This document shows, in pieces, positions 1 through 10,328 of a stretch of 10,328 nt of DNA (positions are counted from its first letter, which is position 1; the number at the start of each line of letters is the position of its first letter). The notes beneath the pieces were generated by a model, which saw nothing but the letters and a program-made list of their open reading frames with translations, did no database searches and was not told the origin of the DNA. The position numbers and the translations under genes were made by a program. Source of the stretch: Gemmataceae bacterium (GTDB lineage Bacteria > Planctomycetota > Planctomycetia > Gemmatales > Gemmataceae); contig JADLBT010000028.1 of the NCBI GenBank assembly GCA_020847555.1, positions 1 to 10,328 of the forward strand. The letters are read 5' to 3'.

Positions 1-3
1 AGG

Positions 4-43
4 CTCGCGCGGAGGCGGGGCGGGTGCCGCGCCTCAGCGCGAG
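4..43 (-). terminator. Hairpin just downstream of the ThuA-like gene
   Basis: An inverted repeat pairs 4-10 (CTCGCGC) with 37-43 (GCGCGAG) and, after one G/A mismatch, 12-17 with 30-35, giving 13 base pairs around a 12-nt loop. It begins 5 nt past the TAA stop of the minus-strand gene, the normal place for an intrinsic terminator. There is no clear U-tract after it on the minus strand, so it may instead be an RNA-stabilising hairpin. The sequence left of it is cut by the window edge. Confidence 0.5.
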
Positions 44-48
44 GTTCG

Positions 49-1014
49 TTAGATCCCGCGGCGCTTGACCGCCAGTTTGCCTTCGTCGATGAGCCCCTCC
101 AGGTCGCTGCGGCTCAGAGGTCGCGACGGCACTCCGGCCGCCGGCACCTCCAGCTTCGACACCCACGCGACGGCGTTCAGCAGCAGCGTGCGGAAGTTGT
201 TGTCGCCGAGGTTGGTGTGCCTGTGCAGGCCGGTGAAGCCGAACCCGCGGGCGCCGTCGGGTCGGTCATACGCCCACGCCATGACCTGCTTCTTCCCTGA
301 CGACACCGCTGCGTAGACCGCCGGGTTGCCGCCGCGCGGGCTCGCCTTCTTCCCCTCGGCCTGAATCGTCTTCAGCGGCGGCAGGGCGACCAGGACCGGC
401 GTCACCCCCTTCAGACCCTCGACGAAGCGCATGTGATAGTACCACTCGTCGTTGACGGCGAACGGCTTGACGCCGCGCGTCGTGTCGTGTTTGGGGATCT
501 CCTTGAACTCCGGCGTCCACCACGGGTTGACCGACCAGAACGTCTCGAAGTACCCGCCGAGCCACTTCAGGTAGTGGTCGCCCTGCTCCCCCTTGTTGAC
601 CTCAACGCTGTAGTGGATCGCCATGAACCCGGCCCTGCGGGCGGCCGCCTCCTTCACTGCCGGGTTGACAGCCGATCCGCCGTGGTTCAGCAGGACGATG
701 ACGGTGTCGGCGTGGCGGAGATCCTTCGGCCACTTCTGCATCGTGTGGACGACGGCGTAGGCGTCCGGATAGGTCGCATTGATGGTCCGGGCGAGGTAGA
801 TCGCGGCGGCCAGAAACTCGTGGTTGCCGCGCGGGCCGTGCGGCGCCGTATCGGCGACAAAGACGATCTTCTTGACGCCCCTGGCGGCCTTCTGGGCGTC
901 GTGGTCGTAGAGATCGCGTTCCTTCTGCTGGCCGTCGGCCGAACCTTCGGCGAGCAGCAGCGCGGCGGCCAGGCCGAGCGCGACGACGGCGAACCGGGAG
1001 CAACGTGCGGACAT
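49..1014 (-). CDS. Secreted ThuA-like domain protein
   Basis: This 321-residue protein belongs to the ThuA-like (trehalose-utilisation-like, glutamine-amidotransferase-fold) group common in planctomycetes; the biochemical role is not established in most members. Residues about 1-29 form a signal peptide: a basic start, then a run of A/L/V (FAVVALGLAAALLLAEG). The domain runs from about 48 (KKIVFVAD, first beta strand), through NHEF at 64-67 and the hydrophobic strand TVIVLLNHGG at 104-113, to the strand FMAIHYSVEV at 130-139. The C-terminal block RGFGFTGLHRHTNLGDNNFR (256-275) and LNAVAWVSKLEVPAAGV (279-295) resembles planctomycete homologues from memory. The start is supported by GGAGG on the minus strand (1022-1026) seven bases before ATG. 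The gene is divergent from the macroglobulin, and a hairpin follows its stop. It appears intact. The substrate cannot be read from the sequence; a secreted carbohydrate-related role is only inference. Confidence 0.85.
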   Translation of the reverse strand: MSARCSRFAVVALGLAAALLLAEGSADGQQKERDLYDHDAQKAARGVKKIVFVADTAPHGPRGNHEFLAAAIYLARTINATYPDAYAVVHTMQKWPKDLRHADTVIVLLNHGGSAVNPAVKEAAARRAGFMAIHYSVEVNKGEQGDHYLKWLGGYFETFWSVNPWWTPEFKEIPKHDTTRGVKPFAVNDEWYYHMRFVEGLKGVTPVLVALPPLKTIQAEGKKASPRGGNPAVYAAVSSGKKQVMAWAYDRPDGARGFGFTGLHRHTNLGDNNFRTLLLNAVAWVSKLEVPAAGVPSRPLSRSDLEGLIDEGKLAVKRRGI

Positions 1015-1021
1015 CAGGGTG

Positions 1022-1026
1022 CCTCC
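1022..1026 (-). promoter_or_regulatory. Ribosome binding site of the ThuA-like gene
   Basis: On the minus strand this reads GGAGG, seven bases before the ATG whose first base is 1014. It fixes the start directly before the signal peptide. Confidence 0.7.
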
Positions 1027-1118
1027 CCAACAGGTGAAAGACGCAGGCGGGCTCGGGGCGGACAGTAGCCGAGTCAGGCAGTCATGCTAAATCGGCGCAC
1101 GGACGCCGTCAACGATCG

Positions 1119-1163
1119 AATCGACCCGCCCCGCTGGGGCCACCGGAGCCCCTGGACTCGATT
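1119..1163. repeat. Interrupted inverted repeat in the divergent promoter region
   Basis: AATCGA at 1119-1124 is complementary to TCGATT at 1158-1163. Inside it GGGGC (1136-1140) pairs with GCCCC (1148-1152) around a 7-nt loop. The outer and inner arms are separated by unpaired sequence, so the whole is imperfect. Its place between divergent genes suits a regulator site or a leader hairpin, but a chance repeat in GC-rich DNA is also possible. Confidence 0.3.
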
Positions 1164-1264
1164 ACTTCCCTTGCCAGTACAGGACTTGCAAACTTCCTCG
1201 TTCCACCCCCGCCTGCAATCCCTCCCAAACCCTTCCTCGTCTATCTTGCGGGAGGCCGTCCGCT

Positions 1265-1270
1265 TACAAT
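1265..1270 (+). promoter_or_regulatory. Possible -10 box for the macroglobulin gene
   Basis: TACAAT is one of the few AT-rich hexamers here and lies about 100 bases before the start codon. No good -35 box is found at 16-18 bases; the nearest TTGCGG (1246-1251) is only 13 bases away. This is a weak call based on one half of a promoter. Confidence 0.2.
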
Positions 1271-1358
1271 AGCCAGGCACCCCCACGCCCTCTGTAACCC
1301 GCGCAGGCGACTCGCGCTGGTCGGCCCACGCATGCCCGGGCTCGCTGCGCCCCCATTC

Positions 1359-1363
1359 GGAGG
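1359..1363 (+). promoter_or_regulatory. Ribosome binding site of the macroglobulin gene
   Basis: GGAGG followed by a six-base spacer and ATG at 1370. It decides the start of the long reading frame over other nearby ATGs such as 1332, which is in another frame. Confidence 0.8.
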
Positions 1364-1369
1364 TTTCGT

Positions 1370-4300
1370 ATGCCAGGAAATCATCCCTCGCGCTGGTCGC
1401 TGGGTCAGCGGCGCGCGTGGAGCCTGCATAAGCTGTGTGCAGGCTCTCCAGGTCGCCTGGGGGTGGCGGCTTCCCTGCTCGTCGGCATCGCCGGCCTGGC
1501 CCTGCTCAGCCAGTCCGCCAGCCGCGCCGGGGCGCCACCCTTCGCGCAACAGGCCGTCGCCGTCTTCACCGGCGACAACAAACTCGTCCTCGCGGTTTCC
1601 CTGGTGAACCCGCAGGAGCAGGAACTAACCGGCCAACTTGACGTCGAGGTGCTCGGCGCCGGCGGCAAGGTGCTCGCCCGCGCCGGCCAGGCGATCGCTC
1701 AGAAGACGCGCGCCGCCAGCTATCGCTTCGAGCTGGCCGCCGACAAGGGTGACGCCGGCTCACTGTTGATCCGCAGCCGCTTCGGCAAGAACACGCTGAC
1801 ATCGCCTCTCAACAAGATCCTCCTGCAGAAGGGACACGAGACGGGGCTCACCACTGGCGTCGAGTTCTTCGCCGGCAGCACCGCGCCGTTCCGCTGCTCC
1901 GTCCACGGCGCCCGCACCCCGATCGAAACCCTGCCTTTGCCCGGGTCCGAGGTCACCCTGGCGCTCAAGGACAGGGACGGTAAGGCGCAGCAGCTGTACA
2001 CCGGGCGCACCGACAAGGACGGCGTTGCCGAGGCCGATTTCCGCGTCCCCACCCTGCCGACCGGCCAGTACACGCTCGTCGTGACGACCCGCTCGGCCCT
2101 GGGCGAGGAGAAGCTGGAGCGGCCGGTGCGTATCGCCTCGGACGCGAAGATCCTGCTCGTCACCGACCGGCCGATCTACCAGCCCGGCCACGTCATCCAC
2201 CTGCGCGCCCTGGCCCTGCGGCCCTTCGACCTCAAGCCGGTCGAGGGCGGCAAGCTCCTCTTCGAGGTCGAGGACGCCAAGGGCAACAAGGTCTACAAGA
2301 AGGCGTTCGACACGTCCGCTTACGGCGTCGCGTCGGCCGACTTCCAGCTCGCCGACGAAGTCAACATGGGCGACTACCGCATCCGCGCCGTGCTCGGCGA
2401 GCAGCGGGCCGAGAAGACCGTCACCGTCAAGCGCTACGTCCTGCCGAAGTTCAAGCTGAACGTCAGCAGCGACAAGGCGTTCTACCTGCCGAAAGAGAAG
2501 ATTCAGGGCAGCCTGCAGGTCGATTACTTCTTCGGCAAGCCGGTCGCCGGCGGCACTGTCAAGGTGACCGCCGAGACGTTCGACGTCGCCTTCCGCAAGT
2601 TCCAGACGTGGGAAGGCAAGACCGACGCCAACGGCCACGTCAAGTTCGACATCCAGCTGCCCGACTACTTCGTCGGCACCCCGCTGCAGAAGGGCAACGC
2701 CCTGGTCAAGCTGGAGGTGAAGGTCACCGACACCGCCGACCACGGCGAGACGGTGACGAAGACCTACGCCGTCAGCGATCAGCCGATTCGCGTCAGCCTG
2801 ATCCCGGAGGGCGGGCGGCTCGTGCCGGGAATGGCGAACCGCATCTTCGCCGCGGCCACCTACCCCGACGGCGCCCCGGCGCCCGGCTGCGACGTGAAGC
2901 TCTGGGCCGGCAAGGAGGCGAAGGGCGACCCGGTCGCCTCAGTCAAGACCAACGCCGCCGGCCTGGCCGAGTTCAAGCTGAACCCGAAGGCCGAGCAGTT
3001 CCGCCAGGGTAACGCCGAGCAGCGCGAGGTCGAGTTCCTCGGCGGCAAGCAGATCGGGTGGTTCTCGACGATCCTGTTCGACGTGACCGCCGAGGCCCGC
3101 GACGCCCGCGGCAGCGTGGCCCGCGCGACCGCCGAGTTGAACAGCCACCCGTTCGGCGAGAACGTCCTGCTGCGCCTCGACAAGGCGATCTACCAATCGG
3201 GCGACAGCCTGAACGTGGACGTTCACACGTCCGCCGGCATGCCGACCGTCTACCTCGACATCACGCGCGGCGGGCAGATCCTGCTCAGCCGCTGGATGGA
3301 CGTCAAGGACGGACGAGCGACGCACCGGCTCGACCTGCCGCAAACTGTGTTCGGCAGCCTGGAGGTCCACGCCTACCAGGTGCTGCGCTCCGGCGAGATC
3401 GTCCGCGACAGCCGCGTGGTCTACGTGCAGCCGCGTAACGACCTGAAGGTCGAGGTGCAGGCCGATCAAACGGTCCACGCGCCCGGCGAGAGCGGCCGCA
3501 TCCAGTTCAAGGTCACCGACGCGGCCGGCAAGCCGACTGCCGCCGCCCTCGGCATCATCATTGTCGATGAGGCCGTCTACGCCCTGCAGGAGATGCAGCC
3601 CGGCCTGGAGAAGGTGTACTTCACCCTCCAGGAGGAGTTGCTCAAGCCGCAGGTGCAGCTCAAGTTCAGCCCCGGCGAGGACGTCGGGAACCTGATCCAG
3701 CGCCCCGCCCTGCCCGCGCCCAAGCAGCAGATCGCCCAGGTACTGTTGACGGGCATCAAGGTGCGACCACCGGCCCGCTGGGACGTGGCGCCCGCCCTGG
3801 AGCGGCGCAATCGCTACGAAGCCCAGATCCAGGCCGTCGGCTGGGGCGTCTATCACTACGCCTGGCACAACGAGTCGGCCCTGCGCCACGACGAGAAAAC
3901 CGGCCGCTGGCGCTTCGCCGACGACGTGCTGCAGAAGGCGGCCAATGCTGGCCAGTTCCATCTCCAGGCACTGAATGGCCCGTTCGGCGGCAAGCTGACG
4001 CTGGAGGAGTTGGCCCGCACCGAGAAGGGGTTCAGCGCCGGGGAACTCACTCGCGCCCTGACCCGCCACCGGATGGACCGGCTGAGCGAGGCGTTCGTCG
4101 CCTACACGAGCGCTCACAAGGAGAAGTTCCTCAAGGACGGCAAGTGGTCGTTCCCGGCGACGATCCTGTCCGAGGCCGCCGCGAACCAGGGGCTCGACGC
4201 CAACTGGTTGCGCGACGGCTGGGGCCAGGGGTTCAAGCTGGTCCGCCGCGACCGCAAGGCCGACAACAAAACCGGCCACGCCCAGTTCGATCAGTTCGAG

Positions 4301-6799
4301 ATCGTCTCGGCCGGCCCGGACCGCGACTACATGACGGCCGACGACGTGCGCGGGCCGAGCGCCGAGCTGAAAACGGCCGGCGGCTGGTGGAAGGAGTTGC
4401 AGCCGACGCAAATGGCCCGGCTCGATCTGCGGCTACGCGAACTCCAGCAGCGCGGGGTGCATCTGCTCCGCGACGAGCAGCGGCGAAATCAGCTCGGCGC
4501 CATGAACCGCGACCGCGCAGGACGCCCGGGTCCGGGCGGAGGATTCGCCGCGCCGGGTGCCGCGCCGCGGGAGTTAGCGGACGCCAAGGCGGTCGGCGGT
4601 GAGGGCAAAGGCGGGTTCGAGTCGCGCGCCAAGGCCGATCAGAACCGCGGTGAGGGGGAAGGTGGCGGTGCCCCGCCGCTGCGGATCCGCGAGTACTTCC
4701 CCGAGACGATGCTCTGGCAGCCGGCCCTGATCACCGACGAGAACGGCGTGGCCAACCTCGCCGTCAACTTCGCCGACTCGATCACCACCTGGCGGCTGAC
4801 CGCGTCGGCCAACTCGCGCGGCGGCGCCCTCGGCGGCGCGACCGTCCCGCTGAAGGTCTTCCAGGACTTCTTCGTGGACATCGACCTGCCGGTCACGCTC
4901 ACCCAGAACGACGAGGTCGCCTTCCCGGTTGCGGTCTACAACTATCTGAAAAATCCGCAGACCGTGCGGCTCGAACTCCAGCAGGAGTCGTGGTTCACCC
5001 TCCTCGACACGGCGGGGGCGACCCGGACCCTGAAGCTGGAGCCGAACGAGGTCACCTCGGTCAAGTTCCGGATCAAGGCCAACAAGAACGGCTGGCAGCC
5101 GCTGACCGTCAAGGCTTTCGGCACGAAACTGTCGGACGCGGTCAAGCGTGTCGTCGAGGTCGTGCCGGACGGCCAGAAGGTCGAGCGCGTCGTCAACGAC
5201 CGGCTGAGCGGGCGCGTCGCCCAGACGGTCGAGATTCCCCAGAACGCGGTGGCCGACTCGTCGAAGATCCTGGTGCGCATCTACCCCGGAGTGGTGGCCC
5301 AGGTGATGGAAGGGATGGAAGGCATGTTACGCCTTCCCGGTGGCTGAATGGAGCAGACGTCTTCCGCGGCCTATCCGAACATCCTGGTCGTGGATTACGT
5401 CAAGAAGGCCCGTGTGGCCTCTCCTCAGCTCCTGATCAAGGCCGAGCAGTTCCTGAGCGTCGGTTACCAGAAGCTCCTCACCTTCGAGCGGCCCGGCGGC
5501 GGGTTCGACTGGTGGGGCAGCGGCCCGCCGCTGGTGTGGCTGAGCGCGTACGGTCTGCAAGAGTTCAACGACATGGCGAAGGTCTACCCGGTCGATCGCG
5601 GCGTGATTGATCGGACGCAGGCCTGGCTGATGAAGCAGATGGACAAGGACGGCACCTGGTCGAACATCGGCGCGACGCACGGCGAGACAGTCGCCACGAT
5701 GGGCAATCCGAAGCTGCTGCTGACCAGCTACGTCGTCTGGTCGCTCCTGGAGAGCGGCTACCCGAAGGACAAGCTGCGTCCGTCCGTGGACTACATCCGC
5801 GGGCACGTCGGCGACGCCGGCGAGAACGCCTACGTCCTGGCGCTGGCGGCCAACGCCCTGGCGGCCTACGACGCCAAGGACGACGCCACCCTCGACGCCC
5901 TGCAGCGCCTCGAGAAGCTGCGCAAGGACGTGCCGGAGTGGAAGGCGGTCAGCTACCCGTCGAAGGCGACCTCGCTCGCCTATTCGCGCGGCGACAGCGT
6001 GACCGTCGAGACGACCGCCCTGGCCGTCCTGGCGATGGCGAAGACGGGGCAGTTCACCAACAGCGTCAACAAGGCGCTGACGTACCTGATCAAGGCCAAG
6101 GAGGGCAACGGCACCTGGGGCAGCACCCAGGCGACGATCCTCGCGCTCAAGGCGCTGCTGTCCGGCATGGCCGGGCCGACGATCCAGGGGCGCGTGCCGT
6201 TCACCGTCTCGGTCAACGGCAAGGTGGCGGCCCGCAGCGAGGTCACGGCGGACAACGCCGACGTGATGCAGGCGTTCGACCTGAAGGAGCACACGCAGAC
6301 CGGGCCGAACCGCGTCGAGATCGAGGTCAAGGGCGAGACGCCGCTGATGTATCAGATCGTCGGCCGGCACTACGAGCCGTGGCAGAAACGGCCCGAGAGC
6401 AAGAAGCCGGTGCTCGACATCAAGGTCGAGTACGACCGCACGAAGCTGTCCACCAACGACCTGCTGCGGGCGAAGGCGACGTTGAAGTACAACGGCCCGA
6501 TCCCGACGTACATGGTGATGGTGGACCTGGGCGTCGCGCCCGGGTTCGTGGTGGACGCGGGCGACTTCGCCGAGATGGTGGCGAAGAAGCGGGTGCAGCG
6601 GTTCACCGTGACGCAGCGGACGGTCACCCTCTACCTCGGCGACGTGCGCCCGGGGGACGAGCTGACGTTCGAGTACACGCTGCGGCCGAAGTACCCGATC
6701 CGCGCCCAGGCGCCGGCGGCGGTGGCCTACGAGTACTACACGCCCGCCAACCGCGCCGTCGGCCGGCCGACGGAACTGACCGTGACCGAGAAGCGGTAG
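1370..6799 (+). CDS. Alpha-2-macroglobulin family protein with in-frame UGA at the thioester cysteine (candidate selenoprotein)
   Basis: Bacterial alpha-2-macroglobulins are large periplasmic or surface protease traps: a protease cuts the bait region, the protein closes, and a Cys-Gln thioester bonds to the target. Read through the UGA, this frame gives about 1809 residues. Residues 30-50 are a hydrophobic signal or anchor segment without a lipobox. Macroglobulin domains follow: TDRPIYQPG (265-273), YVLPKF (356-361), PEGGRLVPG (479-487), and IIIVDEAVYAL (729-739) at the bait-region domain. A long insert fills about 740-1106, then REYFPETMLW (1107-1116) opens the conserved A2M domain. The thioester motif at 1323-1329 reads P-G-G-[UGA]-M-E-Q, followed by the alpha-helical thioester domain (WGSTQATILALKAL near 1583-1596), a CUB-like part and a receptor-binding domain (about 1681-1809). 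A standard gene caller would report two proteins, 1370-5347 and 5348-6799; the second start has no ribosome binding site. It stands alone, with terminator-like hairpins after its TAG stop. Family assignment is firm; selenocysteine decoding is inference. Confidence 0.93.
4043..4348 (+). other. Pseudopilin (GspG)-like module inside the macroglobulin bait region
   Basis: Residues about 892-993 do not look like a macroglobulin domain. A helical part (892-920) is followed by KWSFPATI, LRDGWGQGFKLVRR (947-960) and FEIVSAGPDRDYMTADDV (976-993). This order of D-x-W-G-x-x-F/Y then F-x-I-V-S-A-G-P-D-x(4)-T-x-D-D is the pattern of the C-terminal calcium-binding part of type II secretion major pseudopilins as they appear in planctomycetes. 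Only the globular half is present; there is no prepilin leader. It lies between the bait-domain strand at 729-739 and REYFPETMLW at 1107. The resemblance is by eye. Confidence 0.5.
4502..4687 (+). other. Low-complexity Gly/Ala/Arg/Lys segment, likely the exposed bait stretch
   Basis: Residues 1045-1106 are rich in G, A, P, R, K and E with almost no bulky hydrophobic residues, ending directly before REYFPETMLW. In the family the protease-cleaved bait loop lies just before this domain. The many Arg and Lys residues (for example RDRAGRPGPGG, ESRAKADQNR) would suit trypsin-like cleavage. The role is inferred from position and composition. Confidence 0.5.
5345..5347 (+). other. In-frame UGA codon replacing the thioester cysteine codon (candidate selenocysteine)
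   Basis: Codon 1326 of the macroglobulin frame is TGA. The flanking codons read CTT CCC GGT GGC TGA ATG GAG CAG ACG, that is L-P-G-G-U-M-E-Q-T. The family motif is G-C-x-E-Q, so the stop stands exactly on the catalytic cysteine, which differs from TGC or TGT by one base. The frame is identical before and after. Other possibilities are a sequencing error, a recent nonsense mutation, or readthrough with another residue. The kdtA gene in this window seems to end at an ordinary TGA, so general reassignment of UGA is unlikely. Confidence 0.6.
5348..6799 (+). other. C-terminal half of the macroglobulin: rest of thioester domain and receptor-binding domain
   Basis: These 483 codons directly follow the UGA in the same frame and would be called a separate gene starting at ATG 5348. 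They begin inside the thioester motif (M-E-Q-T-S-S-A-A-Y-P-N), include the conserved GGGFDWWG, TQAWL, DGTW and WGSTQATILALKAL blocks of the thioester domain, and end with a receptor-binding domain (VLDIKVEYDR through PTELTV). There is no signal peptide and no cysteine. Purine-rich sequence at 5308-5322 is about 25 bases from the ATG, too far for a ribosome binding site. As a free-standing protein it would be cytoplasmic and without function in a macroglobulin fold. Confidence 0.85.
5356..5401 (+). promoter_or_regulatory. Candidate bacterial SECIS stem-loop after the UGA
   Basis: GACGU (5356-5360) pairs with ACGUC (5397-5401). After a 2x2 internal loop (5361-5362 against 5395-5396), UCCGCGGCC (5363-5371) pairs with GGUCGUGGA (5386-5394), nine pairs including two G-U. 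The apical loop is 5372-5385, 14 nt. It starts 24 nt after the UGA, within the spacing known for bacterial selenocysteine insertion elements. Against it, the loop begins UAUCC, without the usual guanine in its first two positions, and the region is GC-rich and codes for a conserved motif, so pairing by chance is possible. Confidence 0.45.
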
Positions 6800-6845
6800 C
6801 GTTCGCAGCTCCGGCGGCTACCGCCGCCCGGAACCAACTGTGACA

Positions 6846-6893
6846 CCCCTGATCCGTTCCGCTCCCCCCGGAGGGGTGCGGCCGGGTCAGGGG
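6846..6893. terminator. Hairpin after the macroglobulin stop
   Basis: Bases 6846-6856 (CCCCTGATCCG) pair with 6883-6893 (CGGGTCAGGGG), eleven pairs including one G-U, with a smaller CCCC/GGGG hairpin possible inside. It lies 46 bases past the TAG stop and just before the stronger hairpin at 6899-6936. No U-tract is visible. Function as a first terminator or mRNA 3' end is inference. Confidence 0.4.
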
Positions 6894-6898
6894 ACCAA

Positions 6899-6936
6899 CG
6901 AACCAGCCCCCGGGCCGCAACCCGGGGGCTGGTTCG
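6899..6936. terminator. Strong bidirectional terminator between convergent genes
   Basis: A perfect 16-bp inverted repeat pairs CGAACCAGCCCCCGGG (6899-6914) with its complement at 6921-6936 around the loop CCGCAA. On the plus strand CTTT follows. It lies between the converging macroglobulin and kdtA genes, 100 bases past the first stop and 33 bases past the second, so it can end both transcripts. Confidence 0.75.
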
Positions 6937-6968
6937 CTTTCCAGCACTCTATCCTCCTCGATCCTGCA

Positions 6969-8288
6969 TCAGGCCGCCCAGTTCGCGGCGTCGGTGCTAT
7001 CGATCAGCCAACTCAGGTGCGTCACCGTTCGCTCGGTGGCCCCCTGCTGCGACAGAACGAACCGCCGCGCCGCGGTGCCGAGCCGTTCGCGTTCCGCCGC
7101 GTCGGCCAGCAGGCGCCCGACGGCCGCGTCCAGCTCGGCCGCGTCGTTGACCTGCACGGCGGCGCCCGCCTCCACCAGCTTGGACGCCGTGTCGCGGAAG
7201 TTCCAGACATGCGGGCCGAACACCACCGCCGCCCCATATGCCGCCGGCTCGATCATGTTCTGCCCGCCGCGCTGGCCGTCCAGGCTCCCGCCGACGAACG
7301 CCACGTCCGCCAGCCCCCAGACGGCGCCCAGCTCGCCGATGGTGTCCACGAGGATGACCGGGCGACAGGATGACGGGGTTACGGAGTGACAGGGTGACGT
7401 CACCGCACTGCGACGGACACAGGGCATGCCGGAGCGGCTGAGCAGCGCGGCCACGTCGTCGAAGCGGTCCTGCTGGCGCGGCACGAGGATCAGCCGCAGG
7501 TTCGGGTGTCGTTCACGCGCGTGGCGGTAGATGGTGAGCGCGGCCTCCTCTTCCGGCGCCTGCGTGCTGCCCGCGATCCAGACGAGGTCGTCCTCGCCGA
7601 TTCCGAGCAGGCGCCGCAGGTTCTCGGTGCGCGGGTTGCGCCGGTCGCCCGTCGTGCCGTCGTACTTCACCGACCCGCTGACATGAACCCGTTCCGGCCG
7701 GACGCCGAGCGCGGCGAAGTGGATCGCATACTCCTCGGTCTGCGCGACGCACAGGTCGAGCCGCCCGAAGACGCGCCGGGCGAGGAATCCCAGCCGCCGA
7801 TAGCGCCGCAGGCTGCGCGGGCTCATGCGGCCGTTGACGACTGCCACCGGCACGCCCAGCCGGTTCGCCGCCGCCAGGAAGTTCGGCCACAGTTCCCCCT
7901 CGGCAAGGACGACGAGGGCCGGCCGCACGCGCCGCAGCGCCCGGTTGACCGCCCAGGTGAAATCGAGCGGCCAGCAGCAGACCGGCAGGTCCGGAAAGTG
8001 TTTCGACGCCTCCGCGAACCCAGTATCGGTGGTGGTCGAGACGACGCACTGCCAGTGCGGGTGGCGGCGGCGGACGGCTGCGACGACCTGGCGCAGCAGG
8101 TGGACCTCGCCGACGCTGACGCCGTGGAACCACGCACACGGGGCGTTGCCGGCGCGCAGGCAGGCGGCGCCGGTGAGCTTGCGCCACAGCCCGCGCCGGT
8201 ACTTGCCGGTGGTGAGCGCCTTGTAAAGGAGCCAGGGGGAGAGGAGGACGAGTACGAGGAGATAAAGGACGTTCAGGAGATCACACAT
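6969..8288 (-). CDS. waaA: 3-deoxy-D-manno-octulosonic acid (Kdo) transferase
   Basis: WaaA (KdtA) transfers Kdo from CMP-Kdo to the lipid A precursor at the cytoplasmic face of the inner membrane, a GT-B fold glycosyltransferase. With the start at 8288 the protein has 439 residues, close to the usual length. Residues 3-24 form one N-terminal membrane anchor (LLNVLYLLVLVLLSPWLLYKAL). WFHGVSVGEV (53-62) carries the expected catalytic glutamate E61; AEGELWPNFL (129-138), GSTQAPEEE (240-248), VDTIGEL (314-320), FVGGSL (331-336), GGQNMIEPAAYG (341-352) and FGPHVWNFRD (357-366) are the donor-binding and core motifs. AGGA at 8295-8298 with a six-base spacer supports this ATG; a longer frame from 8402 would run through the hairpin of the preceding gene. 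An unusual 14-residue insert at about 297-310 is encoded by degenerate octamer repeats. The gene follows secA on the same strand and ends with TGA. Confidence 0.92.
   Translation of the reverse strand: MCDLLNVLYLLVLVLLSPWLLYKALTTGKYRRGLWRKLTGAACLRAGNAPCAWFHGVSVGEVHLLRQVVAAVRRRHPHWQCVVSTTTDTGFAEASKHFPDLPVCCWPLDFTWAVNRALRRVRPALVVLAEGELWPNFLAAANRLGVPVAVVNGRMSPRSLRRYRRLGFLARRVFGRLDLCVAQTEEYAIHFAALGVRPERVHVSGSVKYDGTTGDRRNPRTENLRRLLGIGEDDLVWIAGSTQAPEEEAALTIYRHARERHPNLRLILVPRQQDRFDDVAALLSRSGMPCVRRSAVTSPCHSVTPSSCRPVILVDTIGELGAVWGLADVAFVGGSLDGQRGGQNMIEPAAYGAAVVFGPHVWNFRDTASKLVEAGAAVQVNDAAELDAAVGRLLADAAERERLGTAARRFVLSQQGATERTVTHLSWLIDSTDAANWAA
7351..7398 (-). repeat. Degenerate octamer tandem repeat inside waaA
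   Basis: On the plus strand six consecutive 8-base units read AGGATGAC, CGGGCGAC, AGGATGAC, GGGGTTAC, GGAGTGAC, AGGGTGAC. The consensus is close to RGGRTGAC, or GTCAYCCY on the coding strand. They encode S, T, P and C residues (TSPCHSVTPSSCRP) between the conserved parts VRRSA and VILVDT. The last unit in coding order lies on the conserved VILVD codons, so the array may have grown from there or have been inserted as a dispersed repeat. Confidence 0.7.
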
Positions 8289-8294
8289 CGGGAA

Positions 8295-8298
8295 TCCT
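8295..8298 (-). promoter_or_regulatory. Ribosome binding site of waaA
   Basis: AGGA on the minus strand (within AAAGGATT) lies six bases before the ATG at 8288. It settles the start against the in-frame upstream ATG at 8402, which lies inside the end of secA. Confidence 0.65.
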
Positions 8299-8308
8299 TT
8301 CCCACTCA

Positions 8309-8342
8309 GCAAAGCCCACGGGCTGTGTCCCGTGGGCTTTGC
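8309..8342 (-). terminator. Hairpin between secA and waaA
   Basis: A perfect 14-bp inverted repeat pairs GCAAAGCCCACGGG (8309-8322) with its complement at 8329-8342 around a 6-nt loop. On the minus strand it starts 8 bases after the secA stop and ends 20 bases before the waaA start codon, so it nearly touches the waaA ribosome binding site. No long U-tract follows. It may be a terminator, a partial attenuator or an mRNA processing site. Confidence 0.65.
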
Positions 8343-8350
8343 GATGCTCC

Positions 8351-10328
8351 CTACTTCAGCAGCCGCATGCAGCAGTTCTTGTACTTTTTGCCGCTGCCGC
8401 ACGGGCAGAGCTCGTTGCGGCCGACGCGGTCGCCGCGGTTGCGGATCGGCTCCGGCTTCTTCTCGCCGCCGCTACTGTTCGTGATCGCCTCCTGTTGCTG
8501 CGCCGTCATCGTCAGAGCGCTCTGGGCCTGCTCGTGCGTCACCGCCCCGATCGCCCAGATCGACTCCTCGAACGCCTCCTCCTCCTCCATGCGGAAGACG
8601 GTGTCGGTGACCTTGTCCTGCAGGCCGTCCCACATCGACTCGAACTCCTGCATGCCCTCGCGCTTGTAGACCGTCTTCGGATCCTCCTGAGCATACCCGC
8701 GCAGGCCGACGACCGAGCGCAGGTGGTCCATCGTGTACAGGTGGTTCTTCCACGTGGCGTCGAGCTGGTTCAGCACCAGGCTCCGCTCCATGCGGCGCAT
8801 CTCCGGCCGGAACTGCTGGTCGAACGCATTCCACAGCACCTGCCGCGCCTCGTCCAGGTCCACTCCTTCCAGCTCCTCCTGCGGCACCTCCACGCCGAAC
8901 CCGCTCCGAGCCCACTCGCACAGCTCCCTGGCGTCCTCCTCCTCGGCCGCGCGCGTGCCGCGGAACGCCTCCTCCAGGCGGGCGTCGATCTTGTCCTGGC
9001 CGACCGTCGGGAAGCACTGCTTGCTTACTTCGCGCAGCTTCTCCTCCAGCCGGGCGCGCGACAGCGTGCGGAAGTCCTCCTCCGACAGCGTCGCCTTCAG
9101 CCCCGGGAAGCGCTGCTCGCACCAGCGCATCAGCCCCTCCCGGTCGTAGCGGTGCGCCACCCCCGGCGCGACCGGCCGCTCGGACATGAAGCGCGCCATC
9201 GCCAGCTTGACCGGGAACTCGACCTCCTTCTGCCAGTACAGCTCGCGCACCCGGTCGAGGAGCAGGTTCTTGATGTGGGCGCGCGCCTGGTCCCGCAGTT
9301 CCTCCGGCGCGAGCTTGATCTGAAACTTGAGCCGAGCCCAGTCGCAGATCGACCGGACGCCCCAGTCCGGCTCGAGGTACTCGCGTCCCGGCGTCAGGTC
9401 GATCGCCAGCAGGTGCTTCTCGGCCTCGGCGATCAGGTGCTCGCCCAGGTTGTCCCGGCCGATCTGCTTCAGCTGCCGGTCCGTCACCTTCACGCCCCAG
9501 CGCGCGTTCGCCGTCTGCGCCATCGCCTGCCAGTTCCACTCCTTCGGATCGACGTCGGTACTCAGGTTCTCGTCGAGCGCCTCCTGGATCTGGGTCGGCA
9601 CGGCGCGGCTCGCCTTCTCGCGCGCCAGGCGGTCCGCCTCGTTGAAGTCGGCCCGGCCGAAGTCGCTCGCGTCGAACTCGACGCCGAGCCGCTTGCCGGC
9701 GAACTCGGCGAACGTCGCCGGCCCGTAGTCGTCGTCCAGGAAGCGGTTCAGCGCCAGCTCGACCTGACCGCCGATCATGTCGAGGATGCGGATCTTGCAG
9801 TTGGCACCGTTGAGGATCTCCTGCCGGAACCCGTAGACGCGCTTGCGCTGATGGTCCATCACCTCGTCGTACTCGAGGAGGTTCTTGCGGATGTCGAAGT
9901 TGCGCTCCTCGACCTTGCGCTGGGCGGCCTCGATGCGGCGCGACACCATGCGGCTCTCGATCGCCTGGTCGCGCTCCATGCCGAGCCGTTCCAGCCAGCC
10001 GCGCACCCAGTCGCCGGCGAAGATGCGCATCAGGTCATCTTCCAGCGACAGGTAGAAGCGGCCCGACCCCGGATCGCCCTGCCGGCCGGCGCGGCCGCGC
10101 AGCTGGTTGTCGATGCGCCGCGCCTCGTGGCGCTCGGTGCCGATGATGTGCAGCCCGCCCATCTCGGCGACGCGCCGCCCCTCCTCCTTCGTCTTCTCCT
10201 TCGCCTCGATCGTCTCGACCGTCCGCTTCCAGACGTCCTCCGGCACCTCCAGGCGCGTCGGGTACTCGTGCTTCAGCTGCGCCCACGCCATCGCCTCGGG
10301 GTTGCCGCCGAGGATGATGTCGGTCCCG
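8351..10328 (-). CDS. secA: Preprotein translocase subunit SecA (C-terminal part, cut by the window edge)
   Basis: SecA is the ATPase motor that drives proteins through SecYEG. The visible part holds about 658 residues and begins [14 protein letters not shown], in the second nucleotide-binding domain; the N-terminal part lies beyond the right edge. The ATG at 10291 is internal. [20 protein letters not shown] and [16 protein letters not shown] (helicase motif VI region) are followed by the scaffold helix ([20 protein letters not shown]), an enlarged wing region, and the conserved block [16 protein letters not shown] through [10 protein letters not shown] and YKRE. The protein ends with a zinc-binding SEC-C motif: [13 protein letters not shown] at 8369-8407. 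From GTDI to the end it is some 250 residues longer than in E. coli, judged from memory, because of five repeat-like wing units. The stop is TAG; a hairpin and waaA follow. Confidence 0.95.
8822..9715 (-). repeat. Five diverged helical units in the SecA wing region
   Basis: Five segments share the pattern (hydrophobic)-x-x-W/A-x(3,5)-F/W-x-(hydrophobic)-x-(hydrophobic) followed 5-8 residues later by a charged helix: [13 protein letters not shown] (about 9614-9715), [17 protein letters not shown] (9422-9532), [18 protein letters not shown] (9248-9358), [20 protein letters not shown] (9026-9142) and [18 protein letters not shown] (8822-8935). E. coli SecA has one comparable unit by memory. The repeats are visible only at protein level. 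Confidence 0.55.

Follow-up and report, generated by a model that had tools for sequence, protein, structure and literature searches.

Known alpha-2-macroglobulins carry an internal thioester between a Cys and a Gln, which is shielded until cleavage of the bait region lets lysines of the protease reach it (PMC4498604). Among bacteria, ECAM and SaA2M (E. coli, Salmonella) are proposed protease traps of this kind that act outside the cytoplasm (PMC4498604). Prokaryotic selenoproteins have been surveyed in a 2026 review that puts its own coverage at 119 families or subfamilies (PMC13188914); these two papers, and PMC7232547 below, are drawn on in excerpt. Here we describe a macroglobulin gene in a stretch of 10,328 nucleotides from a Gemmataceae bacterium (contig JADLBT010000028.1, positions 1 to 10,328), which we refer to as the window. 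Its reading frame is interrupted once, by a TGA at positions 5345-5347, and we consider it highly probable that this TGA encodes selenocysteine (Sec) at the thioester position of a predicted secreted macroglobulin, which would permit an internal selenoester.

The gene spans 1370-6799 on the plus strand (1809 codons), and the TGA is the sole in-frame stop ahead of its end. The upstream open reading frame (1370-5347, plus strand) encodes 1325 amino acids and is closed by the TGA; the unchanged frame resumes at 5348-6799 and runs for 483 amino acids to a TAG. The bases around the TGA read CCC GGT GGC TGA ATG GAG CAG ACG TCT TCC, giving PGG-[TGA]-MEQTSS. The parts of the gene are as follows.

1370-5344, plus strand: N-terminal part of the macroglobulin (MG2, MG3, MG4, bait-region domain, A2M), from the open reading frame and Pfam.
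Within 1370-5344, plus strand: signal-peptide-like start with the hydrophobic stretch LGVAASLLVGIAGLALL, judged by eye.
5345-5347, plus strand: in-frame TGA at the thioester Cys position, residue 1326 of 1809, predicted selenocysteine, from the alignment and 40 like sites.
5351-5356, plus strand: GAG CAG, the Glu-Gln of C-x-E-Q, whose Gln is the predicted acyl partner.
5348-6799, plus strand: C-terminal part of the macroglobulin (remaining thioester domain, receptor-binding-type domain), stop TAG, from the open reading frame and Pfam.

In a sequence alignment, the position of the TGA is matched to the Cys of GCGEQ in the solved CD109, which we take to be the thioester Cys of that protein. This alignment and the CxEQ context confirm the initial annotation in placing the TGA exactly on the thioester Cys, and the open-reading-frame calls agree with the open frame it had counted (1325 codons before the TGA and 483 after). 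Above their cut-offs, Pfam models matched MG2, MG3, A2M_BRD (the bait region) and A2M in the part upstream of the TGA, and TED_complement (E-value 7.4e-39) and A2M_recep downstream of it; NCBIfam gave weak matches alone, far below cut-off. A structure predicted for the C-terminal 684 residues agrees with those of native CD109, C5 and A2M, with the thioester-domain fold around the site. The protein is thus a member of the alpha-2-macroglobulin superfamily by its MG, bait, A2M, thioester-domain fold and receptor-binding features, and the Cys of its C-x-E-Q is replaced by a TGA. Superfamily members that lack the thioester Cys exist, C5 being one. The C-terminal part shares 89% identity with a Gemmataceae protein (P0002), and the same 1325-residue N-terminal protein is found on another contig of 12,073 bases (P0121; 99% identity over the compared part). 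Since the same stop stands on that other contig, an error of one assembly is unlikely.

The interruption recurs widely in relatives. The C-terminal part as query gave 120 listed matches, the window's own included, 113 of which start with M-E-Q; these starts prove little alone, because the length filter of this search favours truncated proteins. The N-terminal query admits full-length matches, and among its 120 listed matches (one of them the 99% copy of the window gene), 93 stop at the residue right before the Cys and 27 continue with Cys. Nine entries in the two protein listings carry an organism name: seven Gemmataceae, one Pirellulaceae and one Planctomycetes. At the DNA level, a scan of GTDB genomes yielded 21 loci, with TGA at the Cys position in nine, one of them in Candidatus Uabimicrobium amorphum, whose genome is complete, and TGC or TGT in 12. 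A search of the phylum (392 genomes) returned at least 35 TGA-bearing rows in at least 26 genomes, and one of the order (102 genomes) added four further UGA sites, in genomes already present in the GTDB scan. The TGA stands on the Cys codon in 35 of the 35 TGA rows listed by the phylum search, which bears out the initial annotation's view that its placement goes beyond chance. Homologues with UGA aligned to Cys, whose existence the initial annotation had left to be checked, are thus found in numbers in both protein listings and DNA, and its picture of a single odd macroglobulin was too modest: with 40 UGA sites, this is a recurrent family trait.

These 40 UGA sites (35 from the phylum search, four from the order search and the window), from 30 genomes besides the window, were set against 41 Cys sites, and 39 of the 40 are distinct over 63 bases. 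Glu-Gln is kept at 40/40 UGA and 41/41 Cys sites; the collecting pattern itself demanded EQ, and the 35 phylum rows were located separately, nine of them with no such demand, and show EQ in 35/35. The residue after the TGA is Phe at 32 sites, Met at seven and Cys at one. Met follows the UGA in the window (5348-5350) and in L052, L104 and L109, and the same position is Phe in most Cys-form relatives and Met in L100. The single Cys belongs to L090 (G055:C457, site at 992), which reads G-[TGA]-C-E-Q and is unique among the 40 in having a Cys codon right after the TGA. On one branch, L092, L093 and L094 (G262, G136, G280) read [TGA]-F-E-Q-C, with a Cys after the Gln in 3/3.

The frame past the TGA is conserved, with a ratio of non-synonymous to synonymous substitution (dN/dS) of 0.27-0.59 against five UGA relatives, and it is conserved against one Cys relative as well; the degraded downstream frame that the initial annotation had named as a sign against selenocysteine was not seen. 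On a quick-method tree of 81 sites, the simplest account has nine changes between UGA and Cys, of which at least five are forced by well-supported branches. Three UGA and two Cys genes make up the smallest group with good support that includes the window.

We then considered whether the genomes can decode UGA as Sec. Among the 19 planctomycete genomes of the GTDB scan, selB scored above cut-off in 17 (9/9 UGA and 8/10 Cys genomes) and tRNA-Sec with anticodon UCA was present in 16, including eight of the nine UGA genomes. The nine named UGA genomes have selA above cut-off in eight and selD in eight. In eight UGA genomes selD contains one TGA of its own, at what we take, judging by context, to be the selD active-site position. 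The phylum sample had selB in 22/26 UGA genomes versus 213/366 others (p 0.005), where genomes with no individual row were accepted if the E-value did not exceed about 1e-83. Of the four UGA genomes in that sample with no passing selB, two show no selB at all but match tRNA-Sec strongly. Across the whole set, 28 of the 30 UGA genomes have tRNA-Sec or SelB. Cys-only phylum genomes with a close homologue carry selB in one of six, versus 22/26 for UGA genomes (p 0.003). The UGA form therefore seems to require selB, although selB by itself is not enough. The selA, selB, selC and selD genes that the initial annotation proposed to look for are, then, present in most named UGA relatives; for the window's own organism we infer this machinery only from those relatives.

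The RNA just downstream of the TGA in the window is predicted to form two stacked helices (-23.8 kcal/mol, z -3.39, 0/200 shuffles as good), resembling a selenocysteine insertion sequence (SECIS).

5356-5401, plus strand: predicted SECIS-like RNA hairpin (pairs 5356-5360/5397-5401 and 5363-5371/5386-5394, loop 5372-5385).

The shuffle test and the loop check described below used all 40 UGA and 41 Cys sites. When synonymous codons were shuffled so that the protein was kept, the strongest of five stretches had a mean z of -2.05 at UGA sites versus -0.40 at Cys sites, and UGA sites were clearly more structured in four of the five. Covariation was counted in an alignment (A3) of 29 of the 40 UGA sites, from which 11 divergent ones (L085, L090-L099) had been dropped before pair counts: 10 of 14 pairs have changed on both sides, and the true register beats six slid ones. 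One TGC site, L100 (G005), combines Met after its Cys with rather structured RNA (z -1.99) and may have switched from Sec to Cys recently.

Several results weigh against the selenocysteine reading. Five of the 26 UGA genomes in the phylum search had already appeared in the GTDB scan. Because the sites, like the genomes, share ancestry, the p-values given here overstate. tRNA-Sec was seen in 22 of the 30 UGA genomes and not in the other eight in these searches, the large one of which scored ten candidates per genome at most. In one UGA genome (G146) the sole marker is a selB that is truncated by the end of its contig and scores below cut-off, and in another (G204) neither selB nor tRNA-Sec was found. 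Other Cys-only sets have selB in 6/8 and 8/10, and the pooled counts (26/30 UGA versus 15/24 Cys-only, p 0.04) amount to a moderate co-occurrence. On the RNA side, nucleotides 1-45 showed no difference between UGA and Cys sites in the shuffle test (p 0.16), Cys sites too lay slightly below zero, the window's own z in the strongest stretch was only -1.72, and RNAalifold returned no consensus structure for the 29 sites. The 14-nt loop of the window hairpin, with no G in its first two positions, lies outside the published bacterial SECIS (bSECIS) model, which has a loop of 3-9 nt with G first (PMC13188914). When folds up to 3 kcal/mol above the optimum are counted, a hairpin of that model occurs at 13/40 UGA versus 1/41 Cys sites, the window not among them, and the hairpins after the TGA of selD (L129-L136) do fit it (3-nt loop, G in the first two places, 8/8). 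The macroglobulin hairpin may belong to another SECIS class or may be a wrong fold. Overall, the homologues with UGA or Cys, the sel genes in most named relatives and the conserved downstream frame support the initial annotation in reading the TGA as selenocysteine, and we strongly infer selenium insertion.

As for what the selenium does, we think it probable, with less assurance than for the decoding, that in this widespread planctomycete macroglobulin family the encoded Sec builds an internal selenoester, a new protein electrophile serving as a fast covalent trap, in acyl chemistry and defence rather than redox. The starting point is a macroglobulin frame that is intact except for a TGA on the thioester Cys, as observed at 40 sites. 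SelB and tRNA-Sec would read the UGA as Sec, aided by the RNA hairpin just downstream. Every step after decoding is a prediction. Following export, the Sec selenol would attack the amide in the side chain of the Gln that follows three residues later, a step modelled on the Cys chemistry of known family members, to give a buried selenoester. Cleavage of the bait region by a protease would then move the domain and expose the selenoester, which would acylate an amine of the protease and so catch it. Published accounts rate selenoesters as more reactive than thioesters, and in one comparison of aminolysis a phenyl selenoester was about 6x faster than a p-nitrophenyl thioester (PMC7232547). Activated selenoesters are also thought to hydrolyse more (PMC7232547), so burial would matter. 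Some lineages may have kept Sec because a selenoester would be faster with amines, and others may use Cys because Sec is costly.

Sec could instead be inserted yet stay a free selenol that serves in redox chemistry or metal binding and forms no selenoester, in keeping with the many prokaryotic selenoproteins thought to be redox proteins (PMC13188914). We regard this as unlikely: Glu-Gln is kept in all 35 listed TGA rows, the Cys forms have ordinary thioester motifs, and the window protein has just three other Cys, none near the predicted Sec (L090 and L092-L094 being exceptions elsewhere). Both the conservation of the Gln and the absence of a Cys close by in the window protein favour a selenoester over a redox role.

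We also weighed a fission of the gene, in which translation really ends at the TGA and a C-terminal chain restarts at the adjoining ATG, leaving two chains that both lack the reactive Cys. The window itself has an ATG at 5348, directly after the TGA, with GGTGG a few bases upstream, so that a restart is conceivable there, and gene callers give two proteins in many relatives. As a general account, however, fission fails, since 33 of the 40 sites have no start codon directly after the TGA. Neither TAA nor TAG occurs in the rows listed by the phylum search, and the downstream RNA structure and the repeated exchange with Cys speak against it too, so that we hold it to be very improbable. A general reassignment or suppression of UGA (to Trp, Gly or Cys, for example) would likewise yield read-through, yet no computed result favours it, and it is hardly credible: the listed phylum rows have one TGA each, at the Cys, over about 350 residues compared, 28/30 UGA genomes have tRNA-Sec or SelB, and TGA is the stop codon of a Kdo-transferase-like gene in the window, so that it most likely remains a stop in the window's genome. 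Defects do occur in the family, as in the Cys-type macroglobulin L138 (G431:C456), where a TAG about 65 residues past an intact GCFEQ is probably an ordinary defect or assembly error, but we give next to no credence to a nonsense mutation, pseudogene or assembly error at the TGA, given the identical codon and place at 40 sites, the conserved downstream frame and the same stop in P0121.

The macroglobulin gene is flanked by the ThuA-like and Kdo-transferase-like genes, both on the opposite strand.

49-1014, minus strand: ThuA-like protein, a neighbour with no known link to the macroglobulin system, from the open reading frame and Pfam.
6969-8402, minus strand: Kdo-transferase-like glycosyltransferase, a neighbour whose own stop is TGA, from Pfam and NCBIfam.
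8351-10328, minus strand: C-terminal part of SecA, a neighbour, from the open reading frame and Pfam.

Rfam at gathering scores and ARAGORN found nothing within the window, and megablast of the window against plasmids gave no match.

UGA macroglobulins would likely form a new selenoprotein family, maybe one in which selenium bonds captured proteins covalently. No macroglobulin appears in the excerpted Table 1 of the 2026 review (PMC13188914), and full-text literature searches named no selenocysteine macroglobulin in the titles or starts of abstracts that were listed, although an earlier listing, for example in supplements, is possible; to this extent the novelty suggested by the initial annotation stands. 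If the reading is true, a large defence-type protein joins the selenoproteins. We know of no earlier case of Sec kept for acyl transfer. With UGA and Cys forms side by side on one tree, the question "why selenium?" becomes testable. There is a practical side as well: about 200 of the 240 protein entries listed (113 C-terminal, 93 N-terminal) are probably halves of longer proteins. The odd macroglobulin hairpins, in turn, may define another bacterial SECIS class.

Compared with the eukaryote-type alpha-2-macroglobulin, CD109 and thioester proteins (TEP1, C3), the window gene is bacterial and has UGA for the Cys codon. ECAM and SaA2M share with it the bacterial macroglobulin type but have Cys in their CxEQ thioester (PMC4498604), where the window has UGA, and neither is among the best 60 of 75 sequence matches to the window protein. 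The TGA-containing SelD of the UGA relatives likewise has its TGA on a functional position and occurs in genomes that also carry the UGA macroglobulin, whereas the window's macroglobulin hairpin differs from the SelD hairpins in loop length and in the placing of G. With prokaryotic selenoproteins that have Cys homologues (PMC13188914), it shares UGA on a functional Cys and exchange between Sec and Cys, along with a predicted downstream RNA structure and, in most named relatives, sel genes. It differs in that the excerpted Table 1 of that review has no macroglobulin (PMC13188914) and that the window's U-x-E-Q would, by homology, be acyl-forming rather than redox.
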